From Pontederia crassipes (taxonomy: Eukaryota > Streptophyta > Magnoliopsida > Commelinales > Pontederiaceae): 64,000 nucleotides of DNA. The position numbers and the translations under genes were made by a program. The notes under the pieces are model-generated. The model was not told the DNA's origin. It ran no database searches and was given only the letters and a program-made list of their open reading frames with translations. Location: contig CM060196.1 in the NCBI GenBank assembly GCA_030549335.1, positions 12,849,501 to 12,913,500 on the forward strand, read 5' to 3'. Position 1 is the stretch's first letter, and the number at the start of each line of letters is the position of its first letter. Below are positions 5,433 to 50,330 of the stretch, piece by piece.

Positions 5433-6377
5433 ATGATGAGCACTGTACTTCAACAACTGATGCAGCTGCTGCAGCGCCCTTGGTGGGCGCTTCACACCTT
5501 GTCCTTCGTTCTCCTCTTCTCAGTGGCCACTTGGTTCCTGATTCGGGAACCATCGTCCAGCAAACGTAGCCGCCGTTCGCTTGAAGCGTTCCCCTCCCCG
5601 CCAGGTCTCCCGCTCCTCGGCAACCTCCTCCAGCTCGGCGCCGGACACCGCTCGTTGCGTTCGCTCTCCGAGCGATACGGCCCCGTGATGCTCGTCCGCT
5701 TCGGCTCCGTCCCCACGGTCGTGGTCTCCTCCGCCGCAGCCGCCGAAGAAGTCCTGAAGACTCGTGACCCCTCCTTCGCAACCCGACCGGTAATGTCCAT
5801 TCCCTTGAGGATCTTATACGACGGCCGGGACATGGCCTTCATCAAGTACGGCGATTACTGGAGGGAGCTGAGGCGGGTCTGCACCCTGCACCTGCTCAGT
5901 AACAGGAGGGTGGAGTCATTCCGTCCCATCCGGGAGGAGGAGCTGGCTCTTATGCTCGGGAGGATCCGGCGAGCCACGGGTACCGTGAACCTTAGCGATT
6001 TGGTCGTCGCGCACATAAGCGACGCGATTTGCCGAGTGGCCTGTGGCAAGAAATATTCGTTGGAGGTTGGAGATGGCGGCGCGTGGTTCCGCCATGTGCT
6101 CGACGAGTTCATGGTCTTGATGGGGGAATTCCCCATGCGGGATTACATTCCATTGCTCGGTTGGGTCGACTGGCTGAGTGGGTTAGAGGGTAGGATCAAG
6201 AAGAAGTCCACTGAACTGGATGCTTTCATTGAGAAGGTCTTAGACGAGCATACTACCAAGAACAGCACCAACAAAACGAGTGCTGCTGATTTCATTGATA
6301 TCTTAGAGTCCTTCGAGAACGAGGATGCGGCTACTCGCGTGAAGCTCGACAGAAAAGGTGTGAAGGCCATTCTTCTC
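5433..6377 (+). CDS. Cytochrome P450 (CYP71 clan), gene A, exon 1
   Basis: N-terminal 315 codons of an ER-anchored haem monooxygenase. Start: ATG ATG at 5433/5436, matching the MMAS start of gene C; the second ATG is equally possible. Visible parts are a hydrophobic anchor at residues 21-37, a basic stretch (SSSKRSRRS), the proline-rich hinge PSPPGLPLLGN (54-64), and the C-helix W143xxxR147 that contacts a haem propionate. The exon ends in phase 0 at GCC ATT CTT CTC before GTAAGT (6378). That is the usual CYP71 intron position, before the Asp of the I-helix. Codons are GC-rich at third positions. The family typically oxidises terpenoids, phenolics, indoles or amino-acid derivatives; no substrate can be assigned. 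The frame is open throughout, so the gene may be functional if the large intron is spliced. Confidence 0.93.
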
Positions 6378-6440
6378 GTAAGTATCTCTAAGCATAAGTT
6401 ATTCATCGTGAGTGCATTGCAAATAGATTTTGCTTGGTTC

Positions 6441-6878
6441 TGATGGGAAAATTCGAGAACAAGGAGAGAAGATCGCAGAGAGATTGCAGAAAAATAGAGG
6501 AGACACACGAAATTTACCCAGGTTCACTCTTGAGATGAGGGCTACGTCCTGCAAAGAGGTTCCACTATATCGTTTAGGTTTACAGCCGCCACCCAAATTA
6601 CATCAGAAATTAGGCTATTAATAGCCTCTTCAAACCGGGTTTAAAACCCAAACAAACAGAGAAAAAACCTAATCCGAACCACACGGGTCGGCTAAACAAA
6701 AGCCCAAAACCCGTCTAGGTTTCGGGACCGCCGTCGGGGGGCGGGGCCCCCCGAACCCCCCCTTTCATTCGTACGCCAGCAATACTGTTAATTGGGTAAT
6801 ACTCAGATTCCCCTAAGCTCACGTGGGCGAACCCGGTGTGAGAAACAAGGGGCCCTGAAGTATTCACCAACTCTAACA
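6441..6878 (-). repeat. 3' LTR of the intronic copia
   Basis: 438 bp, TGATGGG to TCTAACA on the + strand; 4 differences from 10983-11420. The RNase H reading frame runs on into this LTR. Confidence 0.95.
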
Positions 6879-9800
6879 TTCTCCCACTTGGTGGATACTT
6901 CACACCAATGAGAGCCTTGCCAGCAACATTCTTCTTCAATCCGATAGCAGTAGAGCACCACTCAAACTTTACACCTGTAACTGCTTTAGTCAGAAAATCA
7001 GAACTATTCTCTGTTGTATCAACCTTTTCAAGCTGAACCTCTTTCTTTTCCACCTTTTCCCAAATAAAGTGGTATTGGATGTCAATATGCTTTGTGCGTG
7101 AGTGAAATGCGGGATTCTTAGCTAACTGAATAGCACCTTGATTATCACATCTCACCTCTATAGCACCTTGCTCAAATCCGAGCTCCAAGCACAATCGCCG
7201 TAGCCATATGGCCTCTTTTGCAGCATGAGTAAGAGCCATATATTCTGCTTCTGTAGAAGAAAGTGCTACCACGCTTTGTCTCTTGCTCATCCAACTTAGT
7301 GCAGCCCCAAATAATGTAAAAACATATCCGCTAGTGGACCGTCTACTATCAATGTCTCCACCCCAATCAGCATCTACATGGCCCACAATATCAAGCATCT
7401 TTCCTTTCCTTGTACCTTCAAAACACAACGAAAAATCTGAAGTTCCACGAAGGTACCTGAAAACTCTCTTAATAGCATTCCAATGTTCCTTGCCTGGGTT
7501 AGACATATACCGACTCAAGACTCCCACTGCTTGGGCTATATCTGGACGCGTGCAAACCATGGCGTACATCAAGCTGCCCACTGCACTTGCATATGGCACA
7601 CGGTCCATCTCTTCGGCTTCTTCATCCGTCTTCGGGCATTGCTCTGCAGAAAGTTTAGTTCCTAGAGACATAGGAGTACCCACTGGCTTACAGTCCGACA
7701 TGTTAAATTTCTTCAACACTTCTTTTATGTACTTCTCCTGTCTTAGCCACAACTTTCTCTTCTGACGATCCCTTCTAATCTGCATACCCAAAATAAAATT
7801 CGCTGGCCCTAAGTCTTTCATCTCAAACTTCTTGGCCAACAAACCCTTCACTGAATTCACCATCTTCATACTGTTTCCAATCAGCAACATGTCATCCACA
7901 TACAATGTAAGAATGACAAACTGATCTCCAACTCTCTTCACATAAACACAATGATCTGAATCTGAACGTACAAACTTGAGTTCGAGCATGTACGTATCAA
8001 ACTTCTGGTACCACATCCTTGGCGACTGCTTCAATCCATACAAAGACTTCTTCAATTTGCACACCAGCTTTTCTTTACCTTGAACTTCAAAGCCTTCTGG
8101 TTGCCTCATATATATCTCTTCCTCCAAGTCCCCATGAAGGAATGCCGTCTTCACATCCATCTGCTCTACCTCAAGATTATATGCTGCTGCCAGAGATAGA
8201 ACAAATCTGATTGAAGTCATTTTCGCCACGGGAGAAAAAATCTCATCATAGTCGACTCCCTCAACCTGAGAGTACCCTTTAGCTACCAGCCTCGCCTTGT
8301 ACTTCTCTACAGACCCATCCGGTTTCAGCTTTCGCTTGAACACCCATTTGCAACCAATTGCCTTTCTATCCTTAGGCAATTTACACAAACTCCATGTTTC
8401 ATTCTTATCCAGTGACTGCATCTCATCTGCCATAGCAAGCTCTCACTGATTTGCATCATCCATAGACCTTGCATCTTTTACAGAACTAGGTTCTTCTCCG
8501 ATGATGCTCAAAGCATGAAACGAACTCAGAGCACTAAGAGAGTATCTCAAAGGTGCTCTTCTTTCTCGTGTCGATCTCCTAAGAACTGGTATGGTAGTAC
8601 CAATATCTGGGTCTTCATCTGAATCTGCATCTTCAACTTCATTAACCGAGTCCTCTTGATCCGGTTCTATAACAGACTCAACTGAAGTATCTTGTGCATC
8701 CACCTCTGAAGTTTCAGAATCAGAATCTTCTTCAAGCACTACCACTTTCTTAGGTTCATCACCTTTTTGAACTTCAACTTGGGAACGTGATTCACGAAAA
8801 ACAACATCCCTGCTGTAAACAATAGTCCTTGACTTTGGATTCCACAGTTTGTAGCCCTTGATCCCTTCCTTGTATCCGACAAATATGTTCTTTTCAGATT
8901 TACTATCAAGCTTACCCCGCTTTTCCTTGGGTATATGAACATATGCGTCACATCCGAACACCCGAACATGAGACAAATTTGGCTTCTTCCCAAACATTGC
9001 CTCATAAGGTGTCTGATCCTTCACTGATGAGGTCGGTGAGCGGTTCTTCAGGTAGTTTGCTGTGGCTACAGCTTCTGCCCAGAATTCTTGCCCCAATTCA
9101 GCCCAACTCAGCATACATCTGGCCTTCTCTATGAGTGACCGATTTAACCTTTCAGCTACTCCATTCTGCTCAGGTGTATATGGAGTTGTCTTCTGCCTGG
9201 CAATACCATTGTCCACGCAGAAATGCTCAAACTTATCTGAACAAAATTCGCCTCCATTATCTGTACGAAGGACCTTGATCTTGCAGCTCAATTGATTTTC
9301 CACCAAAACTTTAAATTCTCGAAACTTATCGAATACATCTGATTTATTCTTGATAAAATAAATCCAACTGTATCTCAAAAAATCATCTATAAAAGAAACA
9401 TAGTACCTGGACCCTCCAATAGATGGAGTCGGAGTTGGTCCAAAGACATCACTATGAATCAGTTCGAGAATCTTCGTTGCTCTTGAACCTGTGTGTTGAA
9501 AACTGACTCGGTTCTGTTTTCCATGGAGGCAATGTTCACAGAACCCGAAGCCCACAGAACAATCCGGAACTCCTTCTACCATCTGACTTGATGCTATAGT
9601 GGAGAGTCCTTTTTCACTGATATGGCCTAATCTCCGATGCCACAACATAGATTTGCTGTCTTCATCTTCTTTGGCCTCTTCAGAAATAAATCCGCAGCCC
9701 ACAGATATTGTCTCTCCGAGCAACTTGTACAACGTGCCATAGCGAACCCCTCGTGCAATTACAATCGACCCTCTGATCATCTTGCATGAATCCTTATCGC

Positions 9801-10982
9801 AACTGAATATAACACCCGAGTCAGCCATTATACCAACAGATAATAAACTCCTGCTCATAAGTGGTATATGCATCACATCTGGTAGAGTCTTCACCGTGCC
9901 ATCATTCATCCTCAACTTCACCCTGCCACGTCCAACAATCTGAACCGCAGTGTCATCTCCGAGCATGACATCTCCACCATTATACTCCTCATATTCACAG
10001 AACCAGTGTTTATGAGGCGTCATGTGATACGAAGCACCAGTGTCGATAAGCCAGACATCTTTATCTGACTGTGCCGTACATGCAGAAGCCACATACATAT
10101 CTCCTGCCTCAGCCTCTTTTTTGTCCGAGGTTGACTCAGCTTCTTTCTTATGAACCGGCTTGTTTTTGCAATCTCGCTTCAGATGGCCCCACTCTTGACA
10201 TCTCCAGCATTGCACCTTCTTATCCTTACTCTTCGAACGCCCACGAGATTTGGATCTCCCTCTCTGATTTTGATTCCTTTCTGGTTGCCTTCCTCTGGCC
10301 GCCAGCGCCTCTTTACCAGAACTTGCTGATCCCTTTCTCCGTATTTCCTCTGATAACAAGGCAGCACATACACTTTCATACGAAAGTTCTTTATCCCCGC
10401 CACCAATCACAACAATTAGATTGTCCCATGAATCCGGCAGCGAACAGAGCAATGTTATTGCCTTATCATCATCTTGAAACTTAACACCGATTGATACAAA
10501 TTGACTGATCACCGTGTTAAAGTTATAAAGATGAGTAGAAAATGAATCACCCTCCTGCATCCGAAGATTGTACAATTTCTTCCTCAGAAATAACTTGTTA
10601 ACCAACGACTTACTTTGATATAGGGATTCCAACTTCCTCCACAGATCTCTGGCAGTAGGTTCGCCCATCACATTCGTAAGAATTGAATCCGCGAGACACA
10701 GCCGAATCAAACCCTTCGCCTTTCTATCAATCCGATCCCACTCTTCGATCGCCTTTGGATCTGCCTGACTGGAGGAGGCCTCGTCCGTGACCTTCGCCGC
10801 CTCCATGCCTGGTCTCTCCTTCTCGATTGCCGTCCAAAGATCTCGATCACAAAGGAGATCCTCCATCTTCATCTTCTAGAGATCAAACCGTGTTCCATCA
10901 AATTTTTCTATCTCGATTCGCGATCCTCCTGACATCTCGAATAAACCCTAATTCCTCGAACAACCTGTGCTCTGATACCAAT

Positions 10983-11420
10983 TGATGGGAAAATTCGAGA
11001 ACAAGGAGAGAAGATCGCAGAGAGATTGCAGAAAAATAGAGGAGACACACGAAATTTACCCAGGTTCATCCTTGAGATGAGGGCTACGTCCTGCAAAGAG
11101 GTTCCACTATATCGTTTAGGTTTACAGCCGCCACCCAAATTACATCAGAAATTAGGCTATTAATAGCCTCTTCAAACCGGGTTTAAAACCCAAACAAACA
11201 GAGAAAAAACCTAATCCGAACCACACGGGTCGGCTAAACAAAAGCCCAAAACCCGTCTAGGTTTCGGGACCGCCGTCGGGGGGCGGGGCCCCCCGAACCC
11301 CCCCTTTCGTTCGTACGCCAGCAATACTGTTAATTGGGTAATACTCAGATTCCCCTAAGCTCACGTGGGCGAACCCGGTGTGAGAAACAAGGGACCCTGA
11401 AGTATTCACCAACTCTAACA
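10983..11420 (-). repeat. 5' LTR of the intronic copia
   Basis: 438 bp direct repeat of 6441-6878, followed by target duplication GGTTC. The tRNA-Met primer site lies immediately to its left. Confidence 0.95.
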
Positions 11421-11450
11421 GGTTCATGCATCATGTATGCACGGTTGCAG

Positions 11451-12062
11451 GATATGTTCGTAGGGGGTACTGATACAACGTCCAGTCTGATAGTGTGGGC
11501 GATGGCCGAGATCATTAAGCATCCGAGAGAGATGAAGAGACTGCAAGAGGAGGTGCGCCGAGTCGTAGGACCGAAGGCGGAGGTGCGCCAGGAGATGACA
11601 AAAAGAATGGAGTACCTACAGGTCGCCATCAAGGAGACGATGAGGCTGCACCCTCCCGCTCCGTTGCTGATTCCGAGGGAGGCCATGGAGAGCGCAAAGG
11701 TCCAAGGCTACGAGGTCCCAGCTGGCACGAGGGTGATCGTTAACGCCTGGGCGATCGGGAGGGACCCCAAGTCGTGGCCGGAGGAGCCCGAGGAGTGGAG
11801 GCCTGAGAGGTTTCTGGGCTGTAGCATCGACTCCAAGGGGCAGCACTTCCAGTTGATACCGTTCGGAGCGGGACGCAGAGGGTGTCCCGCGATCACTTTC
11901 GCGCTCGCCAGCGTCGACGTCCTGCTGGCGAGTCTGCTGTACCATTTCGACTGGGAGCTTCCCGACGGGAAGAATGGGGAGACACTGGACATGGAGGAAG
12001 TATTTGGAATTGTTGTGCATAAGAAGTCGATTCTTGTTCTTGTGGCCAAACCTGTAAACTGA
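11451..12062 (+). CDS. Cytochrome P450 (CYP71 clan), gene A, exon 2
   Basis: C-terminal 203 codons plus stop (residues 316-518), starting after the acceptor TTGCAG at 11445-11450. Motifs in order: I-helix oxygen-activation site VGGTDTT (319-325), K-helix E377TMR380, PERF motif (around 433-436), and the haem-thiolate loop PFGAGRRGCPA with Cys460 as the predicted iron ligand. The last position of the usual FxxGxRxCxG signature is Ala462 rather than Gly, as in gene C but not gene B. The 518-residue total is normal for the family. Without the copia and one copy of its target duplication, the intron would be about 88 nt, close to the 96 nt of gene C. No canonical AATAAA was seen just after the stop. 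Likely functional if the 5-kb intron is removed cleanly. Confidence 0.93.
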   Translation, partial: DMFVGGTDTTSSLIVWAMAEIIKHPREMKRLQEEVRRVVGPKAEVRQEMTKRMEYLQVAIKETMRLHPPAPLLIPREAMESAKVQGYEVPAGTRVIVNAWAIGRDPKSWPEEPEEWRPERFLGCSIDSKGQHFQLIPFGAGRRGCPAITFALASVDVLLASLLYHFDWELPDGKNGETLDMEEVFGIVVHKKSILVLVAKPVN

Positions 12063-18187: not shown

Positions 18188-18800
18188 TATATATATATAT
18201 ATATATATATATAGGAAGATGATTATGGTGCAGGATTATCATCATAATAACGAGTTGAAAGAAAATGCAGCAAAGGATTAATAAACAACGAAACATTATA
18301 AATAGATTACTACAATAAATGCCATGATGCATTGACGGGTGACTGCAGAGGAGATTAAGCTAGATGGAAACATCATAGAACTAATGCAGACAATTTCATC
18401 ATTGAACTAATGCACAGGTGAAAAGAAACTTGATAATGACTAATTCCATAACAGAATTAACTAATTCCATAACAGCATTAACTCTTAATCACATCAAGAC
18501 CTAATGGAAAACTTGAGGCAAAATGATCAAGACGAAGAAGGGCAAAATCATGGATTCACCTAAAAAAATTCTGCCTTGTGTCCATATGTTACTCAATCAC
18601 GAGAACGGGTTCAAGCGAAATAACAAAGAGAGAAAAACATGGGAAAAAGCCGGTAGAGGAAATGGCGGATTATGGAATGGTTGGGGCATATATACGAGGC
18701 GGTCCTCGAGGCGGAAGTCGAGACGTCAGGTGCGCTTTAGGCCAAGGAAGTAGGGAGTGATCGCCATCATGCCCCGCAGCACCATCATCGTCATACCAAG
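18188..18800. other. Spacer between CACTA copy 1 and the gag-only element
   Basis: Begins with a (TA)n run (18187-18213). The rest is moderately AT-rich with no recognised gene. Short open frames near 18523-18760 show no known domain. Confidence 0.45.
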
Positions 18801-20036
18801 TGTAGGATCCCAAAGAACACCAAGAGGGGGAAGGGGGGTGAATTGGTATTAAATCGAAAATATCGATTTCACAAAATTCGTAGCGGAAGCACAAAATCGA
18901 TTCTTAAATTGTTTGCAATTCAGATTATAAACACAATATGAACGGGGAGAGAGAGAGAAAATCAAACATAAAGACATGATGGTTGTTGACGAGGTTCGGC
19001 CACACCTTGGCCTACGTCCCTGCTCCGACTTTTCGACCTCGAGACTGTCAGAGATTCCACTAGCACTTCCTTTGTTCCAAATGGGACAAGAAAGAAAGTC
19101 CTTTACACCACCGTCTTTTTCTCCGCTTCGAGAGGCAAGGCAACCTCTCATCCTAGGAAGCTAATCTATTTCTCTCGCTCAAGAGGTAAGATTTTGAACC
19201 TCTTTTACACAGGAACTCTCTCTAATTTTTCTGAACAAAAATCTTTCTCTCTTTTACAAAACTAAGCTCACAAGAGAAGAAGAGAGAAAGAATGAGAAAG
19301 CTATAAAATGAAAACTTCAAAAAATGATCTCTACAACTTGAAGCTTTTATTCATTGAGTGGATGGATGCTTTTGCCTCTGGCTTTGGCACTCCTTTTATA
19401 GCCTTCAATGTGTGGAAAATTCATTCAGAAATCATTCCACAAATTCCTCCTTCAAATTTGACCGTTATTGTTCATTTGACTTGGAGGCACCGCACTTCTG
19501 GACCGGTCGACCGGTCTATGTGACCGTTGCGCGTTTTCTTCAACTTCTGCGCTTGATCGATCGACCGGTCCGTCGACCAGTGTCTCGACCGAGACTGACT
19601 CGTAGTTTTGATTTGTAGCCGTTGAGCTGATCGGTCGGCCGCTGCATCGATCGGTCTGTCAATCGGTACAGTCTCGCATTTTCATTTGAGCAGTGTCTTG
19701 ATCGTTCGACCGATTTCTTAGATCGATCGACCGGACTATCTCGACCGGCCTTCTTTGCTTCGACCGGCAGGTTGACCGACCTGCACTATTTTGATCATGA
19801 CTTTTTTGCACTGTAAATTAGATGATCTTGGAGTCTATGTAAAGCTAACAGAATTCTCTACAACTCGTTCCACTTTTCTCTAAAACTAATTAGATCAGTT
19901 ATGATTATTTAATCAAGGCATAGTGTATAAAGTTATTCATTTTTCTTTAAATTTTTTTTTACATTTCAACTTTAATCTTTCGAGGTTTGTTTCATCAAAA
20001 TATGATTTTATATGTCATTAAAACTTTGACGCAACA
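18801..20036 (-). repeat. 3' LTR of the gag-only element
   Basis: About 1,236 bp, TGTAGG to CAACA. Its middle (about 19.49-19.79 kb) is rich in imperfect GATCGRTCGACCGGTC motifs. Confidence 0.78.
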
Positions 20037-26710: not shown

Positions 26711-27049
26711 TGTCAAGTTGCAGCAATCGATCGAACAGAATGAAGAATGAGTACTATAATAGATCGAACACAGCAGAATTTGGGAAGAACTACTTCTCTT
26801 ACATTTTTATGCAAAAGAATGATCGGATCGAGCCAGAACAAAAAGGAACGTCCATGTCTTTATATACAAGAAACTGAATATAACGGAAGAAGAAAACGAT
26901 ATACAAAACACGAGCCGATATATGCAAATCAACTTAACCGCCAACTATCTGAAATCGGATAGCATTTGAAACAGTAGTAAACACGTCCTTCGCATGCTCG
27001 TCCATTGTGACCACTCTGTTTCCACTCTGAGATGTAGAAGATTCCAACA
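26711..27049 (-). repeat. 3' LTR of the second-lineage copia
   Basis: 339 bp, TGTCAAG to TTCCAACA on the + strand. It lacks the internal tandem duplication seen in its partner. Confidence 0.92.
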
Positions 27050-30000
27050 GCCCCCCCCCCCCCCCCCCGCAAGTTGGAGACCGGAAGCCATCAAACAGTC
27101 CCAACTTGGACAGGAGAAACTCGTGTTGTCGCCGCGAAAGCCCCTTGGTAAGAATATCAGCAATCTGAAGACCGGTCGAGATGTAAGTAAGGCGAACAAA
27201 CTGTTGAAGCACATGTTCACGAACAAAAAAACAATCTATGTCAATGTGTTTTCGTTCGTTCATGAAACATCGGATTTTCAGCAATTTGGATTGCTGGACG
27301 ATTGTCAGAAAAAAGAGAAATTGGCAATTGAACTGGAAGATTGAGCTCACGAAATAAACGTTTGAGCCATATAAGTTCTGCCACTGTGAGAGCAATGCTT
27401 CTATACTCAGCTTCAACAGACGATCTTGCAACAACCCATTGTTTTTTGGATTTCCAAGAGACAATTGACGATCTTAACTTAATGCAAAAAGCTGAAACTA
27501 ATCGACGAGTGGATAAGCAGGACTCCCAATCAGCATCTGAATATGCCACAAGAGAATTGTTACGAGTAGAAGAAAAAAATAGTCCACATCCGAGCGACCC
27601 TTCTAGATATCTAACAATACAAATTGCAGCTGTCATGTGTGAAGCCTTAGGAGTGTGCATAAACTGGCTGAGATGTCGAACAACAAAGGTCACATCAGGT
27701 CGTGTCTGGTGAGATGGATCAATCGACCAATAAGGCGTTGAAAAAATTCTGAATTAGCCAATATACGATCAGACACATAGCTGAAAATTTCTGATGCATA
27801 TATTGATCAAATTCAGCAGTGGTCAGTTTTAAATTCTCTTCTAAAGGAGTGCTCAAAGGCTTTGCTGCAGTAAGTCCCATATCAGCAATCAAAGACAATA
27901 TGTATTTCCTTTGAGTTAGAAGAATCCCCTTATCTGACCTTAAAACTCCTATGCCAAGAAAGTATTTTAAAGAACCAAGATCCTTTAATTTGAACTTATC
28001 ATTGAGATATGCTTTGGTTTGATTAATTAATGAAATGGAATTTCTTGTCAGTAAAATGTCATCGACATAGACCAGAATAGCAACATAAGAATCCTGGTTT
28101 CTTTTTATGAAGAGAGTGTAGTCATTATAACTTTGTATAAAGTCATCAGCTACCAACACTTTAGAAAACTTAATATACTATTGTCGAGAGGCCTGTATGA
28201 GTCCATACAAAGACTTGTTCAACTTGCAAACATGACCATTAGCAGTGAGAAGACTAGGAGGTGGATGAATATAAACTTCCTCAAAAAGATCCCCATTCAA
28301 GAATGCATTATTAATATCCATATGATAAATTGGCAAATTATGTTGAGCTGCAGAAATAAGAAAGGCTCTAATGGTGACCACTTTAGCCACCGGTGAGAAT
28401 GTGTCCTTGTAGTCTATTCCCTCTTGTTGACTAAACCCTTTTGCAACAAGCCTTGCTTTATAATTTTCAATATCATCATTAGATTTAAGTTTGATCTTAT
28501 AGATCCATTTGCAACCAATTGCCTTCTTTCCCGCAGGCAAAGGAGTTAGACTCCAAGTGTTATTAGAAACCAGAGCATCAAGTTCCAGATCCATTGCTTT
28601 GACCCACTCTGGATCATTGACAACTTGTGAATAGGAGTTAGGCTCAAAAACTGAATCTGAGGCAGCTAAGAAGGTAGCACATGAGTCAGAAAGATTGGCA
28701 AAAGTGAGATAATGGATAGGAAGTATTAGAGTTCATTACATAATCTTGCATCCAAATAGGCCTTTTAATTTGTCTCTTTTCTTTTATTGGAGCAGGCAGA
28801 ACATCAGTATGTGAACCATTAGGAGAAAGCACAGAAATAGGTGCTGTGGAGTCAAAAGAAATAGCAGGTAATTCATCATGAAGATCAATGTATGGTAGAG
28901 AATCAGTCATGAGAGGAGAATCAGCTATGAGTGGAGAATCAGTTGTAAAAAAATCCTCCTCAAAATCATCAGATGTGAGAAAAAAATCATGTCTGGAAAC
29001 ATATCATCAAATTCAGGCACAATAGAAGATAACTTTCCAGTGACTATATGTGGCTTTTTTATAGAAAAGGGAAAGACATTCTCAAAAAAGACAACATTCC
29101 TGCTCACTGATATCTTGTTAGTAACAAGATCCAGGTATTTATACCCCTTTTGAGTATTACTATACCCCAAGAAGACAGATGGATTGGCCCTGGAATCAAA
29201 CTTGTCTGCAATCTGTAGATTGGTGACATAACACAAGCATCCAAAGACTCTAATGTTGTCCAGATTAGGCTTGTCTAACTGATCATCCAACACTTTGAGA
29301 GGAATTTTATTAATCAAATATACTGCAGTCCTCACACATTCATCCCAAAACTTAATAGGCATAGAGGACTGAAAATACACAGCTCTAGCAACTTTCAATA
29401 TGTGCCTACGTTTTCTTTCCACTAGACCATTTTGTTGAGAGTATAGGAACATGAAGTTTGATGGATGATGCCCTTATCACTTAAAAAGTTTTGACACTGT
29501 TTACTCATGAATCCAGAACCATTATCAGATCTAATAATTCTGATTTTTTCATCATATTGTGTGGCCATAAGATTTACAAATTGTTTCAAACATGTTATAC
29601 TATCTGACTTCAACTTCATCAAATAAATCCATGTTAATCTACTAAAGTCATTCACAAGAGTCAAGAAATATCTATTGCCAGCATGAGAAACAAATTTATA
29701 AGGGCCCCATATGTCCATACGAATTGTATGTAATCTATGTTTACAGTGATATTTGTCTTTTACAGGAAAGGGAACTCTGATTTGCTTGGCTAATGGACAG
29801 ACATCACATTGCAAATTATCTCCACAAGTGGATCCACAATCAGTAACAATTTGAAGCCTTTGTAAAGGTAGATGTCCAAGCCTCCCGTGCCATAGCATAT
29901 CATTGCCCTTGTCCTTGTGAACAGCAGCTGCAACAGCCTCTTTATTCTCAGAAATTTGCACCTTTGAATCAGCAAAATCCAGGTAGTATAGTCTATTACT

Positions 30001-31670
30001 TTCTTTACCAATCAGGTGCACCTTCCCATTGTGTAGATCTTTCCCATTGTGTAGATCTTGTATAAGGCAAAAGTTTGGGAAAAAAGCAATCGAGCAACCA
30101 ATCTCTTTGGTTAGTTGTGATGCAGATAAGAGTCTAAACTTAAAATCAGGAACATATAGAACATTTGTCAATGAAAAATGTGAATCAACTGCAACTGAAC
30201 CACAGTGAGTAACTGATAGCCTATTTCCATTAGGTAAAGTAACATGTTTTGGTTTAGTTAATTCACAGACATTAAGGAGACAATTTTTGTTTGAAGTCAT
30301 GTATTGAGTGGCACCAGTGTCAATGATCCATATGTTATCAGCAATATGACAAGATTCATCTATTATACCTGCAACATGTACATTGACAGCTAACTCAATC
30401 TTTTGTTCCTTATCTATAATTTTGAGAATTCTTTGATACTAGTCCTCAGTAAGAACGGGGGGGGGGGGGGGGGGGGGGGGGTCTGCCATTACAATTGTTT
30501 TCATTCTTGAAATTCTCACAATTGTCTGAAGAAACCCTCTGACTTGTGCCTGCTGATGCATTATTCTGAATACTAAGATTCTGAAAAGGAATATAATTCT
30601 GATTTGCAGAACCAAAATTCTGGTTAGAAGAATTATGTGAAATATAACTTTGTTGTGTGTCACAGCCTTGCAAATTTGAAACATTTGCATCAATTGGATT
30701 CTGATTTCTAGCACCTTTGAACCTTGAACCTGGAGGATATCCAATGAGTTTATAACACTGAGCTCTAGTGTGGCCTGGTTTTTTACAATGATCACAGATA
30801 ACAGATGAATTCCTTTTAGGCTTCTGCTGATAATACTGCCTAGTGTTGGATTGATTAGACTGTTGATTGAATTGTTTAGTGTTAGATAGAAATACAGCAT
30901 GTTGAGAGGAATTAACAGTTAATCGACTCCTTTGTTCTTCTTCGGCAACCATTGAGTAAATTTGATTCAGAGAGGGCAAAGGTGACATTAATAAGATCTG
31001 TGATCTAACTTGACTGTAACACTCATTGGGTCCCAAAAGAAACTTATATACTTTCTGTTGGAGCATATATTCAGAAAACTCCTTAGAAGAAGAACCAGAA
31101 ACTCCTAAACTAGGAACCATAAGAGTTAATTCCTCCCATATAAACTTGAGTTTGTTATAATATTCGCCAACAGATAATTATCCTTGATTAATAGAATATA
31201 TTTCACCATGCAACATATATATTTTTGTTCCATTTGATCGTTGAAACCTTTCCTTTAGATCTAACCATATGATCAAGGATGTTTCATCATACGCTGCATT
31301 GCTAATTAAGTCTTTGGACACAGTGCTCGTGATCCAGGAAATCACGAGTGAATCGCATAGTTTCCATTGGTGATGCAAAGCCCGATCAAAGGATTCCAAC
31401 AAACAAGATCCATCCACAAAACCTTGTTTATTCTTAGCTATTAACGCATTAAACAAGGATCTGCTCCAGGGTAAGTAATTACTTGAATCAATCAGAACAT
31501 GATGAGTAAGGATTAACCCAGGCGTATCCGATGAACTCAAATACAAAGGACTGTTCAGATCGATGCTAATAGGAGAAGAGGAAGGTCCAATCGACGATGA
31601 AGAAGCATCCATACTTAAGAGATCAAATACTAATCGATGAAAGCTCCTCAAATATGTTGCTCTAATACCA

Positions 31671-32058
31671 TGTCAAGTTGCAGCAATCGATCGAACATGA
31701 TGAAGAATGAGTACTGTAATAGATCGAACATAGCAGAATTTGGGAAGAACTACCTCTTCTTCTCTTACATTTTTATGCAAAAGAATGATCGGATCGAGCC
31801 AGAACAAAAAGGAACGTCCATGTCTTTATATACAAGAAACTGAATATAACAGAAGAAGAAAATGAAATACATAAACCGATATACAAGAAACTGAATATAA
31901 CAGAAGAAGAAAATGAAATACATAAACCGATATATGCAAATCAACTTAACCGCCAACTGTCTGAAATCGGACAGCATCAGAAACAGCAGTAAATGCCTCC
32001 GCCTCCTCGTCCATGGCGACCACTCTATTTCCACTCTGAGATGTAAAAGATTCCAACA
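31671..32058 (-). repeat. 5' LTR of the second-lineage copia
   Basis: 388 bp. It is longer than its partner because a unit of about 55 bp containing GAAACTGAATATAACAG is present twice (about 31835-31940). Confidence 0.92.
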
Positions 32059-32994: not shown

Positions 32995-33945
32995 ATGACG
33001 AAGAGTGCACTTCAACAACCTTCGCAGCAGCAGCTTCTTTGGTGGGTGCTTCACGCCTTCTACTTCGTCCTCCTCGTCTCGCTGGCCATTTGGTTCCTGA
33101 TTCGGAAACCGTCCAGCAAACGCCGCCGTCCGCTAGAAGCGTTCCCCGCCCCGCAAGGCCTCCCGATCCTCGGCAACCTCCTTCAGCTCGGCGCCCACCC
33201 ACACCGCTCGTTGCGTGTGCTCTCTGACCGACACGGCCCCGTGATGCTCGTTCGCTTCGGCTCCGTCCCCACGGTCGTGGTCGCCTCCGCGGCAGCCGCC
33301 GAAGAAGTCCTGAAGACTCGTGACCTCTCCTTCGCTAGCCGGCCGACAATGTCCATTCCCTCGAGGCTCTTATACGACGGCCGGGACGTGGTCTTCACCA
33401 AGTACGGCGGTTACTGGCGGGAGTTGAGGCGGGTGTGCGTCTTGCACCTGCTCAATAACAGGATGGTGGAGTCCTTCCGGCCCGTCCGAGAGGAGGAGCT
33501 GGCTCTTATGCTCGGAAGGATCCGTCGCGCCACCGATACCGTGAACCTTAGCGAATTGGTCGTCGCGTACATGAGCGACGTCATTTCCCGAGTGGCCTTT
33601 GGCAAGAAATACTCGACTGAGGTTGAAGACGGCGGCACGTGGTTCCGCCATGTGCTCGGCGAGTTCATGGTCTTGCTGGCGGCATTCCCCATGCGGGATT
33701 ACTTTCCACTGCTCGGTTGGATTGACTGGATGAGTGGTTTGGAGGGTAGGATCAAGAAGAACTCTGCTGAATTGGATGCTTTCCTTGAAAAGATCTTGGA
33801 CGAGCATACCACCAAAAACAGCAGCAACAAACTAAGTGCTGCAGCTGCTCCTCCTGATTTTATTGATATCTTGGAGTCCTTGGAGAGCGAGGATGCGACT
33901 AACGGCATTAGGTTCAGCAGAGAGAGTGTCAAGGCCATACTTCTT
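32995..33945 (+). CDS. Cytochrome P450 (CYP71 clan), gene B, exon 1
   Basis: N-terminal 317 codons of an ER-bound P450, starting at ATG 32995 (MTKSALQQ). A hydrophobic anchor spans about residues 15-36, then a basic KRRR stop-transfer, the hinge PAPQGLPILGN, and the C-helix motif YWRELRR. It is collinear with gene A at high identity, and codon third positions are GC-rich like its paralogues. The exon ends in phase 0 at GCC ATA CTT CTT before GTAAGT (33946). It is the least damaged copy: no stop or frameshift was seen in either exon. Reaction class: NADPH-cytochrome P450 reductase-dependent monooxygenation. The substrate is not predictable from sequence alone; CYP71 members commonly act on terpenes, phenylpropanoids, indoles or aldoximes. 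Confidence 0.94.
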
Positions 33946-33980
33946 GTAAGTATCTCTAGAATTTTCTCAGTAGCAACCTA

Positions 33981-34592
33981 TGTTGCACGGTACAAGTACG
34001 AGATATGTCAAATTTTAAAATATTAAGATACGAGTACGACATATATTAAATTTATAATATATAGAAAAAAAATAAATTTTTATAAGATAAAAATATTAAA
34101 TTAGCTAATTATGAATTTTTTAGCATATAAAAAGTGTATATATAATTATTTACAATAAGACAATAAATACTAAGAGCATTAAAAAATAATTCTTTAAGAA
34201 TAAAAGTTCATTCTTAAAAATTAAGTCATCAAACAATATTTTACTTTGTGAAAATAACTTAAGTTCGACACAATTGATAACTTTTTTTAAATGCAATATT
34301 TCTTATATTATCTATGTGATGTCATGATGATATTTATTTTTATTTTTTTATTATATATATTTATCATGTTATTTAGTGTGAATGTATTCATTATCATTGA
34401 TTAGTTATTATCTTTTTTTATGTTTTATCCGATAATTTTTTGGCATGATGTATTCAAATCACGAGGATACTCTATCCGTTGGAGTACTCATTTTTTTTAA
34501 TTAATTATTTATTAAGTATGTATGAGTACGACTAGCCTGCGTACCCCACGGAGGTAGGGTATGCCGAGGAAATTCGAGTAGTGCATCATAGG
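33981..34592. mobile_element. MITE-like insertion in the intron of P450 gene B
   Basis: The gene B intron is 713 nt, against about 88 and 96 nt in genes A (without its copia) and C. Comparison with the C intron places an extra AT-rich block of about 610 bp between two copies of TAGCAACYTA (33971-33980 and 34593-34602), which looks like a 9-12-bp target duplication. The inner edges read GTTGCAC and, inverted, GATGCAC, a weak terminal inverted repeat. Duplication length suggests a Mutator-like MITE, but the ends are too degenerate to be sure. No coding sequence. Confidence 0.6.
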
Positions 34593-34658
34593 TAGCAACT
34601 TATACTAGTGCAAAGAATTTGCTAGCTTCATATATACATCATCCGTGCATGCCTGCAG

Positions 34659-35267
34659 GATATGTTCGCAGGGGGTACTGATACGACGTCCAGTCTGATA
34701 GTCTGGACGATGGCCGAGATCATCAAGCATCCGAAAGAGATGAAGAGACTGCAAGAGGAGGTGCGCCGAGTAGTAGGAACGAAGGCGGAGGTGCGCGAGG
34801 AGATGGCAAAGAGAATGGAGTACCTGCAGGCCGCCATCATGGAGACCATGAGGTTACACCCTCCCGGTCCTTTGCTTACGAGGGAGGCCATGGATGGTGC
34901 ACAGGTCCAAGGCTACGAGGTTCCGGCGGGCACGAGGGTGATCGTTAACGCCTGGGCGATCGGGAGGGAGCCCGAGTCGTGGCCAGAGGAGCCCGAGGAG
35001 TGGAGGCCGGAGAGGTTTCTCGGCAGCAGCATCGACTTCAAGGGGCAGGACTTCCAGCTGATACCGTTCGGAGCGGGGCGCAGAGGGTGTCCCGGGATCG
35101 CGTTCGCGCTCCCTAACGTTGAGGTCCTGCTGGCGAGTCTGCTGTACCATTTCGACTGGGAGCTACCGGACGGGAAGAAGGGGGAGACGCTGGACATGGC
35201 GGAAGTGTTTGGACTTGTTGTCAACAAAAAGTCGAGTCTTGTTCTTGTGGCCAAACCAGTAAACTGA
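34659..35267 (+). CDS. Cytochrome P450 (CYP71 clan), gene B, exon 2
   Basis: C-terminal 202 codons plus stop (residues 318-519), starting after acceptor CCTGCAG (ends 34658). It has the I-helix AGGTDTT (321-327), K-helix E379TMR382, the PERF motif (around 434-437), and the complete haem signature PFGAGRRGCPG with Cys461 as iron ligand and Gly463 at the final position. One residue is missing after the K-helix: PLLTREA where genes A and C read LLIPREA, so a normally conserved Pro is lost. Two AATAAA signals follow the stop (35269-35274 and 35278-35283). Total length 519 aa, normal for the family. Of the three paralogues this is the best candidate for an active enzyme. Confidence 0.94.
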   Translation, partial: DMFAGGTDTTSSLIVWTMAEIIKHPKEMKRLQEEVRRVVGTKAEVREEMAKRMEYLQAAIMETMRLHPPGPLLTREAMDGAQVQGYEVPAGTRVIVNAWAIGREPESWPEEPEEWRPERFLGSSIDFKGQDFQLIPFGAGRRGCPGIAFALPNVEVLLASLLYHFDWELPDGKKGETLDMAEVFGLVVNKKSSLVLVAKPVN

Positions 35268-43560: not shown

Positions 43561-43564
43561 TTGC

Positions 43565-43570
43565 TATAAA
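43565..43570 (+). promoter_or_regulatory. TATA box of P450 gene C
   Basis: TATAAA in GCTATAAATTGG, 54 bp before the ATG at 43619; position matches the box of gene A. Confidence 0.5.
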
Positions 43571-43618
43571 TTGGGGTGCAGAGTGCAAAGTTGATGAACT
43601 AAGCAGAATGCACAAAAG

Positions 43619-43950
43619 ATGATGGCCAGTTCACTTCACCACCTGCTGCTGAGCCAGCAGCTTCTTTGGTCGTGGACCTTTCACGCCTTGTCCTTCGTCC
43701 TGCTCTTCTTACTGGCCGCTCGGTACCTTCTCCGGAAAATATCCTACAAGCAACGCCGCCGCCGGTCGCTCAAAGCGCTCCCTTCCCCGCAATGTCTCCC
43801 ACTCTTCGGCAACCTCCTCCAGCTCGGCGCCCATCCGCAACACTCGCTGCGCTCGCTATCCCAACGACACGGCTCCGTGATGCTTGTCCACTTCAGATCC
43901 GTCCCCACGGTCGTGGTCTTTTCCGCCGTGGCCGTCGAAGAGGTCATGAA
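43619..43950 (+). pseudogene. Cytochrome P450 (CYP71 clan), gene C, exon 1 part 1
   Basis: First 110 codons of the third paralogue: hydrophobic anchor (about residues 18-36), basic KQRRRRS, and the hinge PSPQCLPLFGN. The usual hinge Gly (PPGLP or PQGLP in genes A and B) is Cys. The coding sequence stops at GTC ATG AA, where a copia element begins (43951). Host sequence resumes at 49009 with G ACA CGA GAC, the same place and phase as KTRD in genes A and B. The element thus split exon 1 and duplicated ATGAA. Confidence 0.92.
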
Positions 43951-44425
43951 TGTTAGAGTTGGTGAATACTTCAGGGCCCCTTGTTTCTCACACCGGGTTC
44001 GTCCACGTGAGCTTAGGGGAATCTAAGTATTACCCAATTAACACTATTGCTGGCGTACGAACGAAAGGGGGGTTCGGGGGGCCCCGCCCCCCGACGACGG
44101 TCCCGCTCGGTGAGCGGGCGGGGGTTCGGGGGCAGCGCCCCCGAAACCTAAACGGGTTTTGGACTTTTGTTTAGCCGGCCCGTGTGGTTCGGATTAGGTT
44201 TTTTCTCTGTTTGTTTGGGTTTTAAACCCGGTTTGGAGAGGCTATTAATAGCCTAATTTTTTGATGTAATCGGTGTGGCGGCTGTAAACCTAAACGATAT
44301 AGTGTAACCTCTTTGCAGGACGTAGCCCTCATCTCAAGGGTGAACCTGAGTAAATTCGTGTGTCTCCTCTATTTTTCTGCAATCTCTCTGCGATTTTCTC
44401 TCCTTGTTCTCGGATTTTCCCATCA
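43951..44425 (+). repeat. 5' LTR of the exonic copia
   Basis: 475 bp, TGTTAG to CCCATCA. It holds a GC-rich block of about 37 bp (CGGTGAGCGGGCGGGGGTTC) absent from the LTRs of the copy in gene A. Confidence 0.94.
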
Positions 44426-47400
44426 ATTGGTATCAGAGCACAGGTTGTTCAAGGAATTAGGGTTTATTCGAGATGTCAGGAGGGTCGCGAATCGAGATAG
44501 AAAAATTTGATGGAACACAGTTTGATCTCTGGAAGATGAAGATGGAGAATCTCCTTTGTGATCGAGATCTTTGGACGGCAATCGAGAAGGAGAGACCAGG
44601 CATGGAGATGGCAAAGGTCGCGGACGAGGCCTCCTCCAGTCAGGCAAATCCAAAGGCGATCGAAGAGTGGGATCGGATTGATAGAAAGGCGAAGGGTTTG
44701 ATTCGGCTGTGTCTCGCGGATTCAATTCTTACGAATGTGATGGGCGAACCTACTGCCAGAGATCTGTGGAGGAAGTTAGAATCCCTATATCAAAGTAAGT
44801 CGTTGGTTAACAAGTTATTTCTGAGGAAGAAATTGTACAATCTTCGGATGCAGGAGGGTGACTCATTTTCTACTCATCTTTATAACTTTAACACGGTGAT
44901 CAGTCAACTTGTATCAATCGGTGTTAAGTTTCAAGATGATGATAAGGCAATAACATTGCTCTGTTCGCTGCCAGATTCATGGGACAATCTGATTGTTGTG
45001 ATTGGTGGCGGGGATAAAGAACTTTCGTATGAAAGTGTATGTGCTGCCTTGTTATCAGAGGAAATACGGAGAAAGGGATCAGCAAGTTCTGATAAAGAGG
45101 CGCTAGCGGTCAGAGGAAGGCAACCAGAAAGGAATCAAAATCAGAGAGGGAGATCCAAATCTCGTGGGCGTTCGAAGAGTAAGGATAAGAAGGTGCAATG
45201 CTGGAGATGTCAAGAGTGGGGCCATCTGAAGCGAGATTGCAAAAACAAGCCGGTTCATAAGAAAGAAGCTGAGACAACCTCAGACAAAAAGGAGGCCGAG
45301 GCAGGAGATATGTATGTGGCTTCTGCATGTACGGCACAGTCAGATAAAGATGTCTGGCTTATCGACACTGGTGCTTCGTACCACATGACCCCTCATAAAC
45401 ATTGGTTCTGTGAATATGAGGAGTATAATGGTGGGGATGTCATGCTCGGAGATGACACTGCGGTTCAGATTGTTGGACGTGGCAGGGTGAAGTTGAGGAT
45501 GAATGATGGCACGGTGAAGATTCTACCAGATGTGATGCATATACCACTTATGAGCAGGAGTTTATTATCTGTTGGTACAATGACTGACTCGGGTGTTATA
45601 TTCAGTTGTGATAAGAATTCGTGCAAGATGATCAGAGGGTCGATTGTAATTGCACGATGGGTTCGCTATGGCACGTTGTACAAGTTGCTCGGAGAGACAA
45701 TATCTGTGGGCTGCGGATTTATTTCTGAAGAGGCCAAAGAAGATGAAGACAGCAAATCTATGTTGTGGCATCGGAGATTAGGCCATATCAGTGAAAAAGG
45801 ACTCTCCACTATAGCATCAAGTCAGATGGTAGAAGGAGTTCCGGATTGTTCTGTGGGCTTCGGGTTCTGTGAACATTGCCTCCATGGAAAACAGAATCGA
45901 GTCAGTTTTCAACACACAGGTTCAAGAGCAACGAAGATTCTCGAACTGATTCATAGTGATGTCTTTGGACCAACTCCGACTCCATCTATTGGAGGGTCCA
46001 GGTACTATGTTTCTTTTATAGATGATTTTTCGAGATACAGTTGGATTTATTTTATCAAGAATAAATCAGATGTATTCGATAAGTTTCGAGAATTTAAAGT
46101 TTTGGTGGAAAATCAATTGAGCTGCAAGATCAAGGTCCTTCGTACAGATAATGGAGGTGAATTTTGTTCAGATAAGTTTGAGCATTTCTGCGTGGACAAT
46201 GGTATTGCTAGGCAGAAGACAACTCCATATACACCTGAGCAGAATGGAGTAGCTGAAAGATTAAATCGGTCACTCATAGAGAATACCAGATGTATGCTGA
46301 GTTGGGATGAATTGTGGCAAGAATTCTGGGCAGAAGCTGTAGCCACAGCAAACTACCTGAAGAACCGCTCACCGACCTCATCAGTGAAGGATCAGACACC
46401 TTATGAGGCAATGTTTGGGAAGAAGTCAAATTTGTCTCATGTTCGGGTGTTCGGATGTGACGCATATGTTCATATACCCAAGGAAAAGCGGGGTAAACTT
46501 GACAGTAAATCTGAAAAGAACATATTTGTCGGATACAAGGAAGGGATCAAGGGCTAAATTGTGGAATCCAAAGTCAAGGACTATTGTTTACAGCAGGGAT
46601 GTTGTTTTCCGTGAATCACGTTCCCAAGTTGAAGTTCAAAAAGGTGATGAACCTAAGAAAGTGGTAGTGCTTGAAGAAGATTCTGATTCTGAAACTTCAG
46701 AGGTGGATGCACAAGATACTTCAGTAGAGTCTGTTACAGAACCGGATCAAGAGAACTCGGTTAATGAAGTTGAAGATGCAGACTCAGATGAAGACCCAGA
46801 TATTGGTATTACCATACCAGTACTCAGGAGATCGACACGAGAAAGAAGAGCACCTTTGAGATACTCTCTTAGTGCTCTGAGTTCGTTTCATGCTTTGAGC
46901 ATTATCGGAGAAGAACCTAGTTCTGTAAAAGATGCAAGGTCTATGGATGATGCAAATCAGTGGGAGCTTGCTATGGCAGATGAGATGCAATCACTGGATA
47001 AGAATGAAACATGGAGCTTGTGTCAATTGCCTAAGGATAGAAAGGCAATTGGTTGCAAATGAGTATTCAAGCGAAAGCTGAAACTGGGTGGGACTGTGGA
47101 GAAGTACAAGGCAAGACTGGTAGCTAAAGGGTACTCTCAGGTTGAGGGAGTCGACTATGATGAGATTTTCTCTCCCGTGGCAAAAATGACTTCGATCAGA
47201 TTTGTTCTATCTCTGGCAGCAGCATATAATCTTGAGGTAGAGCAGATGGATGTGAAGACGGCATTCCTTTATGGGGACTTGGAGGAAGAGATATATATGA
47301 GGCAACCAGAAGACTTTGAAGTTCAAGGTAAAGAGAAGCTGGTGTGCAAATTGAAGAAGTCTTTGTATGGATTGAAGCAGTCGCTAAGGATGTGGTACCA

Positions 47401-48527
47401 GAAGTTTGATACGTACATGCTCGAACTCAAGTTTGTACGTTCAGATTCAGATCACTGTGTTTACGTGAAGAAAGTTGGCGATCAATTTGTCATTCTTACA
47501 TTGTATGTGGATGACATGTTACTGATTGGAAATAGTATGAAGATGGTAAATTCAGTGAAGGGTTTGTTGGCCAAGAAGTTTGAGATGAAAGACTTAGGGC
47601 CGGCGAATTTTATTTTGGGTATGCAGATTAGAAGAGATCGTCAGAAGCGAAAGTTGTGGGTAGGACAGGAGAAGTACATAAAAGAAGTGTTGAAGAAATT
47701 TAACATGACAGACTGCAAGCCAGTGGGTACTCCTATGTCTCTAGGAACCAAACTTTCTGTAGAGCAATGTCCGAAGACGGATGAAGAAGTCGAAGAGATG
47801 GACCGTGTGCCATATGCAAGTGCAGTGGGCAGCTTGATGTACGTCATGGTGTGCACGCGTCCAGATATAGCCCAAGCAGTGGGAGTCTTGAGTCGATATA
47901 TGTCTAACCCAGGCAGGGAACATTGGAATGCTATCAAGAGAGATTTCAGGTACCTTCGTGGAACTTCAAATTTTTCGTTGTGTTTTGAAGGTACAAGGAA
48001 AGGAAAGATGCTTGATATTGTGGGCCATGTAGATGCTGATTAGGGTGGAGACATTGATAGTAGAGGATCCACTAGCGAATATGTTTTTACATTATTTGGG
48101 GCTGCACTAAGTTGAATGAGCAAGAGACAAAGCGTGGTAGCACTTTCTTTTACAGAAGCAGAATATATGGCTCTTACTCATGCTGCAAAAGAGGCCATAT
48201 GGCTACGACGATTGTGTTTGGAGCTCGGATTTGAGCAAGGTGCTATAGAGGTGAGATGTGATAATCAAGGTGCTATTCAGTTAGCTAAGAATCTCGCATT
48301 TCACTTACGCACAAAGCATATTGACATCCAATACCACTTTATTCGGGAAAAGGTGGAAAAGAAAGAGGTTCAGCTTGAAAAGGTTGATACAACAGAGAAT
48401 AGTTCTGATTTTCTGACTAAAGTAGTTACAGGTGTAAAGTTTGAGTGGTGCTCTACTGCTATCGGATTGAAGAAGAATGTTGCTGGAAAGGCTCTCATTG
48501 GTGTGAAGTATCCACCAAGTGGGAGAA

Positions 48528-49003
48528 TGTTAGAGTTGGTGAATACTTCAGGGCCCCTTGTTTCTCACACCGGGTTCGCCCACGTGAGCTTAGGGGAATC
48601 TGATTATTACACAATTAACACTATTGCTGGCGTACGAACGAAAGGGGGGGTTCGGGGGGCCCCGCTCCCCGACGGCGGTCCCGCTCGGTGAGCGGGCGGG
48701 GGTTCGGGGGCAGCGCCCCCGAAACCTAGACGGGTTTTGGGCTTTTGTTTAGCTGGTCCGTGTGGTTCGGATTAGGTTTTTTCTCTGTTTGTTTGGATTT
48801 TAAATCCGGTTTGGAAAGGCTATTAATAGCCTAATTTTTTGGTGTAATCGGTGTGGCGGCTGTAAACCTAAACGATATAGTGGAACCTATTTGCATGAAG
48901 TAGCCCTCATCTCAAGGGTGAACCTGAGTAAATTCGTGTGTCTCCTCTATTTTTCTGCAATCTTTCTGCGATCTTCTCTCATTGTTCTCGAATTTTCCCA
49001 TCA
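48528..49003 (+). repeat. 3' LTR of the exonic copia
   Basis: 476 bp direct repeat of 43951-44425, followed by ATGAA. Confidence 0.94.
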
Positions 49004-49008
49004 ATGAA

Positions 49009-49622
49009 GACACGAGACCTCGCCTTCTCCAACCGGCCCAGCGCGTCCACTCTCCTGAGTCTCTTATACGGCGGTCACGACCTGGCCTTCGCCAAGTACG
49101 GCGAGTACTGGCGTCAGCTGAGGCGGGTATGCGCCCTACACCTGCTCAGCAACAAGCGGGTGGAGTCCTTCCGGGAGGAGGAGCTGGCACTTCTGCTCGG
49201 AAGGATCCGGCGGGCCACTGGCCCCGTGAACCTCAGCGAGCTGGTCATCGCCTTCACCAACGACGTTGTTTGCAGGGTGGCCTTCGCCAAGAAGTACTCG
49301 ACGGAGGCCGGTGGCGACGGAACATGGTTATACCATGTGCTCGGCGAGTTAGAGGTCTTGTTGGGGGCGTTCTCTATGCGGGAATACATTCCACTACTCG
49401 GTTGGGTCGATTGGGTGAGTGGTTTGGATAGTAGGATCACGAATAACTCCACTGAATTGGATACTATGATGGAAAAGATTTTAGAAGAGCATCCTACCAA
49501 GAACGTCAGCGGCAACAATACAACTGCTGCTTCTGATTTCATTGATATATTGGAGTCCTCGGAGAGCGAGGATGCGACTACTGGCATTAAGCTTAGCAGA
49601 AAGAGTGAAGGCCATACTTCTT
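49009..49622 (+). pseudogene. Cytochrome P450 gene C, exon 1 part 2
   Basis: Continues exon 1 after the copia element: KTRDLAFSNRP, the C-helix motif YWRQLRR, and RIRRATGPVNLSELV, collinear with genes A and B. It lacks three residues (ESFREEE where B has ESFRPVREEE). Near the end it reads AAGAGTGAAGGCC where gene B has GAGAGTGTCAAGGCC. The 2-nt loss shifts the frame about 18 nt before the intron donor GTGAGT (49623). The gene is therefore dead even apart from the insertion. Confidence 0.9.
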
Positions 49623-49718
49623 GTGAGTATCTCTAAAAAATCTTATCAGTAGCAATTTATACGAGTGCAACTGCAAAGTTATCTGCTATGTTCATACATC
49701 ATTCATGCATGGCTGCAG

Positions 49719-50330
49719 GATATGTTCGCAGCGGGTACTGATCCAACGGCTAATGCGATAGTGTGGACGATGGCCGAGATTATTAAGCATCCGAAAGAGA
49801 TGAAGAGACTGCAAGAGGAGATTCGCCGCGTGGTAGGACCGAAGGCGGAGGTGCGCCAGGAGATGACAGAGAGAATGGAGTACTTGCAGGCAGCTATCAA
49901 GGAGACGTTGCGGCTGCGCCCTCCCCTCGCTTTGCTGATTCCTAGGGAGGCCAATGATGATACGCAAATCCAAGGCTACGAGGTGCCGGCCGGCACGAGA
50001 ATGGTCGTGAACGCCTGGGCGATCGGGAGGGACCCGGAGTCCTGGCCGGAAGAGCCCGAGGAGTGGAGACCGGAGAGGTTTTTGGGCAGCAGCGTTGACT
50101 TCAAGGGGCACGACTTCCAGCTGATACCGTTCGGAGCGGGGCGCAGAGGCTGCCCCGCGATCGCGTTCGCGCACGCCAACATCGAGGTCGTACTGGCGAG
50201 CCTGCTGTACCATTTCGACTGGGAGCTGCCCGACGGGAAGAAGGGGGAGACGCTGGACATGGAGGAAGTTTATGGTCTTGTTGTGCACAGAAAGTCTAGT
50301 CTTATGCTTGTGGCCAAATCTGTAAACTGA
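49719..50330 (+). pseudogene. Cytochrome P450 gene C, exon 2
   Basis: 203 codons plus stop, uninterrupted, starting after the acceptor GGCTGCAG (ends 49718); the intron is 96 nt. It keeps the K-helix ETLR, the PERF motif and the haem loop PFGAGRRGCPA with its Cys. However, the I-helix reads AAGTDPT: the Thr that normally follows Asp in the oxygen-activation motif is Pro, so this copy would probably be impaired even if exon 1 were whole. An AATAAA lies at 50350-50355. Confidence 0.9.

Follow-up and report, generated by a model that had tools for sequence, protein, structure and literature searches.

Separate copia and MITE-like insertions in three members of a large P450 gene array of Pontederia crassipes

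The window analysed here is a stretch of 64,000 nucleotides from Pontederia crassipes (C14:12849501-12913500, i.e., on contig 14 of a 1.13 Gb genome assembled in 43 contigs). Between window positions 5433 and 50330, three P450 genes, here named A, B and C, were recognized on the + strand from open reading frames and Pfam matches. These genes and the main insertions are listed below in window positions:

5433..6377, + strand: gene A exon 1 (P450 N-terminal part), open frame, Pfam PF00067 with E 2.2e-28
6378..11450, + strand: gene A intron, 5,073 nt, phase 0, GTAAGT..CAG
6436..6440 (left) and 11421-11425 (right), + strand: target-site duplication GGTTC of the A copia
6441..11420, - strand: Ty1/copia element in the gene A intron, 4,980 bp, antisense to A, Pfam gag_2, rve and RVT_2
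11451..12062, + strand: gene A exon 2, Pfam PF00067 with E 1.3e-62, stop TGA
26711..32058, - strand: second LTR element, between A and B, 5,348 bp, target-site duplication CCTAG
32995..33945, + strand: gene B exon 1, open frame, Pfam match
33946..34658, + strand: gene B intron, 713 nt, phase 0
33970-33977 and 34592-34599: 8-bp target-site duplication GTAGCAAC of the B MITE, exact on both sides
33978..34591, + strand: putative MITE of 614 bp in the gene B intron, termini CTATGTTGCAC..GTGCATCATAG
34659..35267, + strand: gene B exon 2, Pfam match
43619..43950, + strand: gene C exon 1, 5' piece, left target-site duplication ATGAA (43946-43950) included, start placed by eye, from alignment
43951..49003, + strand: Ty1/copia element in gene C exon 1, 5,053 bp, sense to C, frames broken
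49004..49622, + strand: gene C exon 1, 3' piece
49719..50330, + strand: gene C exon 2, open, I-helix AGTDPT, Pfam match

The coding sequences of A (518 codons) and B (519 codons) are open over both exons, and PF00067 scored above cut-off in both exons of each, as well as in the pieces of C that were scanned (49004-49606 and exon 2). Each gene has a single phase-0 intron with GT..CAG ends; its position, ahead of the I-helix motif, is flanked by ..AILL and DMF.. in A, B and a sister of A named D, and C shares this position. The heme cysteine motif (PFGAGRRGCP), ExxR (ETMR/ETLR) and the I-helix (GGTDTT/AGTDPT) were read, and the best solved relatives were ferruginol synthase (5ylw) and sugiol synthase. 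A P450 is assigned to the CYP71 family if it shares 40% identity or more with named members of that family; judged by sequence style, A, B, C and the array around them are putatively CYP71. A conserved phase-0 intron is described in CYP93 (PMC5070762), and a tomato survey gives phase one in 106 of 145 P450 genes (PMC6367802), so that intron phase alone is not diagnostic.

The original prediction held that each gene had been hit by a different transposon, a claim that fails for A and C, which carry members of one copia family. In element orientation, both start with TGTTAG, end with CCCATCA and share the primer-binding site TGGTATCAGAGC; their internal halves are 97.9% and 96.5% identical, and their LTRs 94.5-95.9% identical, leaving aside 40-41 gap columns. 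Both display the features of Ty1/copia elements, namely LTRs bounded by TG..CA, a 5-bp target-site duplication, a primer-binding site and the domain order, which in A runs Retrotran_gag_2, gag_pre-integrs, rve and then RVT_2; in C, where a single frame was scanned, gag_2, pre-integrs and rve were found, and the reverse transcriptase part is DNA 96.5% identical to that of A. The LTRs of the A copia (6441-6878 and 10983-11420) show 4 differences in 438 positions (K 0.0092), and those of the C copia (43951-44425 and 48528-49003) show 22 in 475 (K 0.048); the latter element has ATGAA on both sides. Since site, orientation and target-site duplication differ, these are independent insertions. By a likeness of the gag start, the family may belong to the Tork/TNT1-like lineage. 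A local hop between A and C was rejected, the LTR of A being closer to LTRs on other contigs (98%) than to those of C (94.5-95.9%).

The putative MITE in B has terminal repeats of 11 bp with 1 mismatch and is dispersed, with at least 50 matching stretches genome-wide (40 of 250 candidate places scored, the window's own copy included); among the matches listed, the other copies are 74-93% alike and of varied length, and of 11 copies whose sequence was retrieved, 4 retain the terminus GTGCATCATAG. Judged by the length of its target-site duplication, the element may be hAT-like.

The array that includes these genes is far larger than three members, with about 40 loci spread over two contigs. A genome search with A exon 1 gave at least 127 matches, and 41 close loci (A-D and L027-L063) were aligned; L029-L031 are identical to L028 over 2,661 bases, which leaves 38 distinct loci, and the tree has 37 rows, L029-L031 and the half-gene L062 being left out. 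Most of the aligned loci fall within C14:12.59-13.47 Mb and C13:40.9-42.0 Mb, and several genes of contig 14 pair with genes of contig 13 in broadly matching order; judged from these gene pairs alone, the two contigs are apparently homoeologous. The sister of A is D, at C14:12925656, 12 kb beyond the window (97.2% identity, support 100/100), that of B lies on contig 13 at C13:41877 (97.3%, support 99/96), and C groups with C14:13109, C14:13124 and C13:41862 (93.4-95.6%, support 100/100). Within the trio, identity amounts to 87.4% for A-B, 81.2% for A-C and 81.3% for B-C. Furthermore, the A-to-B block is duplicated beyond the window as D plus a truncated B-like fragment; the A-D colinear block is 94-95% identical near the gene and lower and patchy further out, and the copia is absent in D.

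Elsewhere in the array, four tandem repeats (L028-L031, at C14 12608394, 12638652, 12668922 and 12699197) are spaced by about 30.26 kb; they are identical over all 2,661 bases compared in each, and every one is paired with another gene copy whose exon 2 is broken. They represent either a very recent amplification or an assembly artefact.

The window contains further repeats. The element at 26711-32058 has LTRs at 26711-27049 and 31671-32058 (K 0.059, 57 gap columns), and the one frame scanned gave an SH3_retrovirus match; it differs from the A/C family and is probably of copia type. It lies about 0.9 kb upstream of the ATG of B, on whose promoter it may have an effect, and its site is empty in the D-E block. 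Positions 18793-23188 are occupied by an older LTR-type element whose repeats measure about 980 bp (K 0.109), a site that in the D-E block is mostly other sequence; its short frame at 21442-21897 is putatively gag-like. Direct and inverted repeats of 80-190 nt that share the core CGACGGTC..ACCGTCG are clustered at 15375-15977, 25430-26162 and 58596-59092, have many matches in the D region as well, and are perhaps subterminal repeats of a DNA transposon.

Empty sites in the nearest relatives indicate that all three insertions are private to A, B and C. The intron of D, of 88 nt, passes straight through the A insertion point with one GGTTC (sequence TTGCTTGGTTCATGCATC), and the 5,073 nt of the A intron equal 88 + 4,980 + 5. 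The introns of the nearest relatives of B (L045 and L035) are without the MITE, and exon 1 is without the C copia in L054, L036 and L043, where the site reads GAGGTCA(T/C)GAAGAC. Since introns of at most 162 nt were found in 32 of 40 family members measured, the figures for C, L038, L043, L061 and L063 including some unmatched exon, the ancestral intron was short; that of A is the longest. The LTR divergence of the A copia (K 0.0092) is far below the dS of 0.066 between A and D, so that this element arrived well after the A-D duplication; for the C copia, K is 0.048 against a dS of 0.07-0.09 from C to its open relatives L054 and L036. Introns enlarged to 1.0-1.7 kb also occur in L040, L041, L055 and L036: in the first three, the inserts are related to each other although the genes lie on contigs 13 and 14 (an older event), and for L036 the relative L054 is without such an insert.

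On its sequence, gene C is dead, as originally proposed: in addition to the copia in exon 1, the 3' piece of that exon has a private 2-bp deletion just before the intron that shifts the frame (relatives read GTGTGAAGG, C reads GTGAAGG), and the I-helix reads AGTDPT (Thr to Pro) where L054 and L036 have AGTDTT. A private 9-bp in-frame deletion lies in the same 3' piece. On the terminal branches, nonsynonymous and synonymous changes number 22:14 in C, 14:9 in L054 and 9:15 in L036. Because the ratio in C is about that of the intact L054, and its comparison with L036 gives a Fisher p of 0.11, substitution counts alone do not show the death of C; the ratio is also below the approximately 3:1 estimated for death over the whole branch, so that death may have come later than the LTR age suggests. 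The sister pseudogene L043 (C14:13109) was damaged independently of C: about 0.6 kb of GGGTCGACCC-rich sequence is inserted where its exon 1 ends, its intron contains further foreign sequence, and it has other lesions as well.

A separate observation concerns the I-helix acid, which was lost in two subclades. The start of exon 2 reads GTHTT in L037, L040, L041, L042, L053, L055, L056, L057 and L060, and GTATT in L038, L039, L048 and L050; one clade thus has His in place of Asp in all 9 of its members, and in a clade of six, the 4 members that could be read all have Ala. His also stands at this position in the pseudogene L043, though the alignment there is doubtful. Mean dN/dS is 0.37 in the His clade (7 of 9 members) and 0.35 in the Ala clade (4 members), similar to the 0.43 and 0.47 of two trios with Asp. 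Selection may be maintaining these subclades as non-oxygenating or unusual P450s; in a literature search for AGTHT, the word was not found among the matches listed.

In A and B, frames are open and splice sites intact, which makes splicing of the enlarged introns likely. The original prediction spoke of a tolerated large intron in A, a description that does not follow from an intact frame. Between A and D, dN/dS is 0.26, with branch nonsynonymous:synonymous changes of 7:7 in A and 6:8 in D; this shows constraint that mostly predates the insertion in A. At K/2 of about 0.005, only an estimated 7 or so neutral changes are expected in the 1.56 kb of A since the insertion. The insertion is so young that a silenced copy would often still look intact, so the intact frame of A is weak evidence of function.

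In the strongest alternative, the intronic copia silences A or disturbs its splicing, by way of heterochromatin, early polyadenylation or a cryptic acceptor, and A would be a pseudogene too young for its exons to have decayed. The small LTR divergence, 4 differences in 438 positions, agrees with this, as do six AATAAA words that the copia carries in the sense of gene A, at which early polyadenylation would be possible, and an AG across the LTR/target-site junction (11420-11421), 29 nt before the true acceptor, which could act as a cryptic, frame-shifting acceptor. Intronic transposons of rice are reported often to trigger heterochromatin (PMC7145194), and an antisense ONSEN copy in SOC1 of Arabidopsis gives rise to chimeric isoforms (PMC12112155). 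Against it, the donor and acceptor are intact, as are the final 30 nt of the intron (11421-11450), in which the acceptor is the sole AG; the LTR end contributes a CTAAC word, 32 nt ahead of the acceptor, that could serve as a branch point. Moreover, the same work reports that new full-length ONSEN copies in Arabidopsis genes are mostly spliced out (PMC12112155), and the A-D dN/dS of 0.26 also counts against silencing, although nearly all of that time predates the insertion. Overall, we regard silencing of A as unlikely, and favor splicing of the enlarged introns of A and B.

The C LTR and internal pieces were also searched against the 41 loci, the D region, L064 and L065. At C13:41884 (L062/L065), exon 1 breaks off at a copia of this family; the far LTR of that element is truncated, and beyond it lies sequence like the A-B spacer of the window; the sister genes L049 and L051 are uninterrupted at this site. 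At C14:12622 (L032), a 407-bp solo LTR of the family lies in exon 2 with the target-site duplication ATGAG; three more copies of this gene, at a spacing of about 30 kb, have the same exon 2 break as read from the match positions, and the solo LTR was apparently copied along with its 30-kb repeat. A fifth, weak LTR fragment is present in L063 (77% over 110 bp).

With at most 3 mismatches, the LTR start pattern occurs 3,244 times genome-wide, against 0 for a reversed control. Counting every LTR separately, about 0.18 same-family insertions would be expected in the approximately 61 kb of array gene sequence (an estimate from 37 genes at about 1.65 kb), and four were observed (Poisson P 3e-5, a post hoc figure that lacks a matched control family of genes). 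If A and C are set aside as the hits noticed first, two insertions remain in 58 kb (P 0.012, post hoc); on the assumption of 10,000 LTRs, counting diverged copies, the expectation rises to 0.54 and the P value for four is 0.002, again post hoc. The flanks of the family elsewhere were sampled from 20 of at least 23 element pairs spaced 4.4-4.6 kb on contigs 1 and 2, taking 1 kb of one flank each and 20 control stretches 50 kb away, with ORFs of at least 65 aa scanned. GC was 0.355 in the flanks and 0.335 in the controls, and the nearest 150 bp were exon-like (GC at least 0.59) in 2 of 20. Pfam gene domains (GH1; kinase) appeared in 2 of 62 flank ORFs, if two kinase models matched one ORF, together with one weak viral match (Pneumo_M2), presumably by chance; among the 42 ORFs of the control stretches, the sole matches were to retrotransposon gag or capsid models. 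Strong exon targeting was thus not seen in this 20-flank sample, nor was an obvious target-site motif found by eye in the 20 flank ends. That the family is drawn to or kept in the array, four independent insertions having broken or enlarged four genes so that the array acts as a sink, is a tentative proposal that we consider somewhat doubtful; retention through redundancy is the simpler reading. The breaking of two further array genes by the same family is what is new here.

Integrating these findings, we propose, with a probability of about 0.87, that A, B and C come from three subclades of one large CYP71-type tandem array; segments of two apparently homoeologous contigs would have been duplicated again and again as it expanded. 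As the empty sites show, each gene split from its nearest relatives first and received its transposon afterwards: a copia in the 88-nt intron of A, a hAT-like MITE in the intron of B, and a copia of the A family in exon 1 of C. The enlarged introns of A and B would likely be spliced, and C has lost its function; redundancy of the array would let such insertions persist, to which a modest genic insertion bias of the copia family may add.

The original picture of an exclusive trio of paralogues, three different transposons and three settled outcomes (tolerated, enlarged, dead) is very improbable. It located the insertions correctly, with exact target-site duplications at all three, and C is dead, but identities and tree agree that each of the three is closer to a gene outside the trio than to the other two (81.2-87.4% within it against 95.6-97.3% to the nearest outside relatives), which is an outcome that the original prediction itself named as a refutation, one copia family is common to A and C, and the insertion in A is too young for an open frame to show tolerance. 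Even less credible is that the insertions are assembly artefacts: the four 30-kb-spaced tandem copies, identical over 2,661 bases, could hint at assembly trouble, but the exact target-site duplications at all three insertions make an assembly join unlikely, and the LTR pairs differ internally and the relatives have clean empty sites.

The array, read as three-subclade members with separate later insertions, is a case of ordinary P450 birth, death and transposon turnover, all of its parts being of known kinds. Xenobiotic-metabolizing P450 genes of Helicoverpa zea and Drosophila have LINEs, SINEs, MITEs and other transposons in exons, introns and flanks; an enrichment of transposons is reported for environment-response P450 genes of insects, and the authors conclude that they are selectively retained (PMC1852546). 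Transposons within P450 genes are likewise found here; in the insects these are mostly non-LTR and DNA elements, whereas the present case is a plant CYP71-type array with copia elements and with empty sites read from paralogues (PMC1852546). Insertions of ONSEN (ATCOPIA78, a copia) in Arabidopsis resemble ours in placing full-length copias in genes, and a genic preference and usual splicing-out are described; those are fresh experimental insertions with RNA evidence, whereas ours are natural copies of another family known from DNA alone (PMC12112155). Similarly, the rice genes with heterochromatic, transposon-bearing introns (OsIBM2) are otherwise transcribed genes with long transposon-filled introns, like the long intron of A, with chromatin state and expression known, whereas A is known from its sequence (PMC7145194). 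Among the P450, transposon and intron papers found, mostly the best matches, we recognized none on this array, which does not prove their absence.

For each insertion, filled and empty sites are paired inside one genome. The effect of a 5-kb intronic copia would therefore be testable, with no need of a second accession, by comparing A with its 97% identical sister D in the same tissue.
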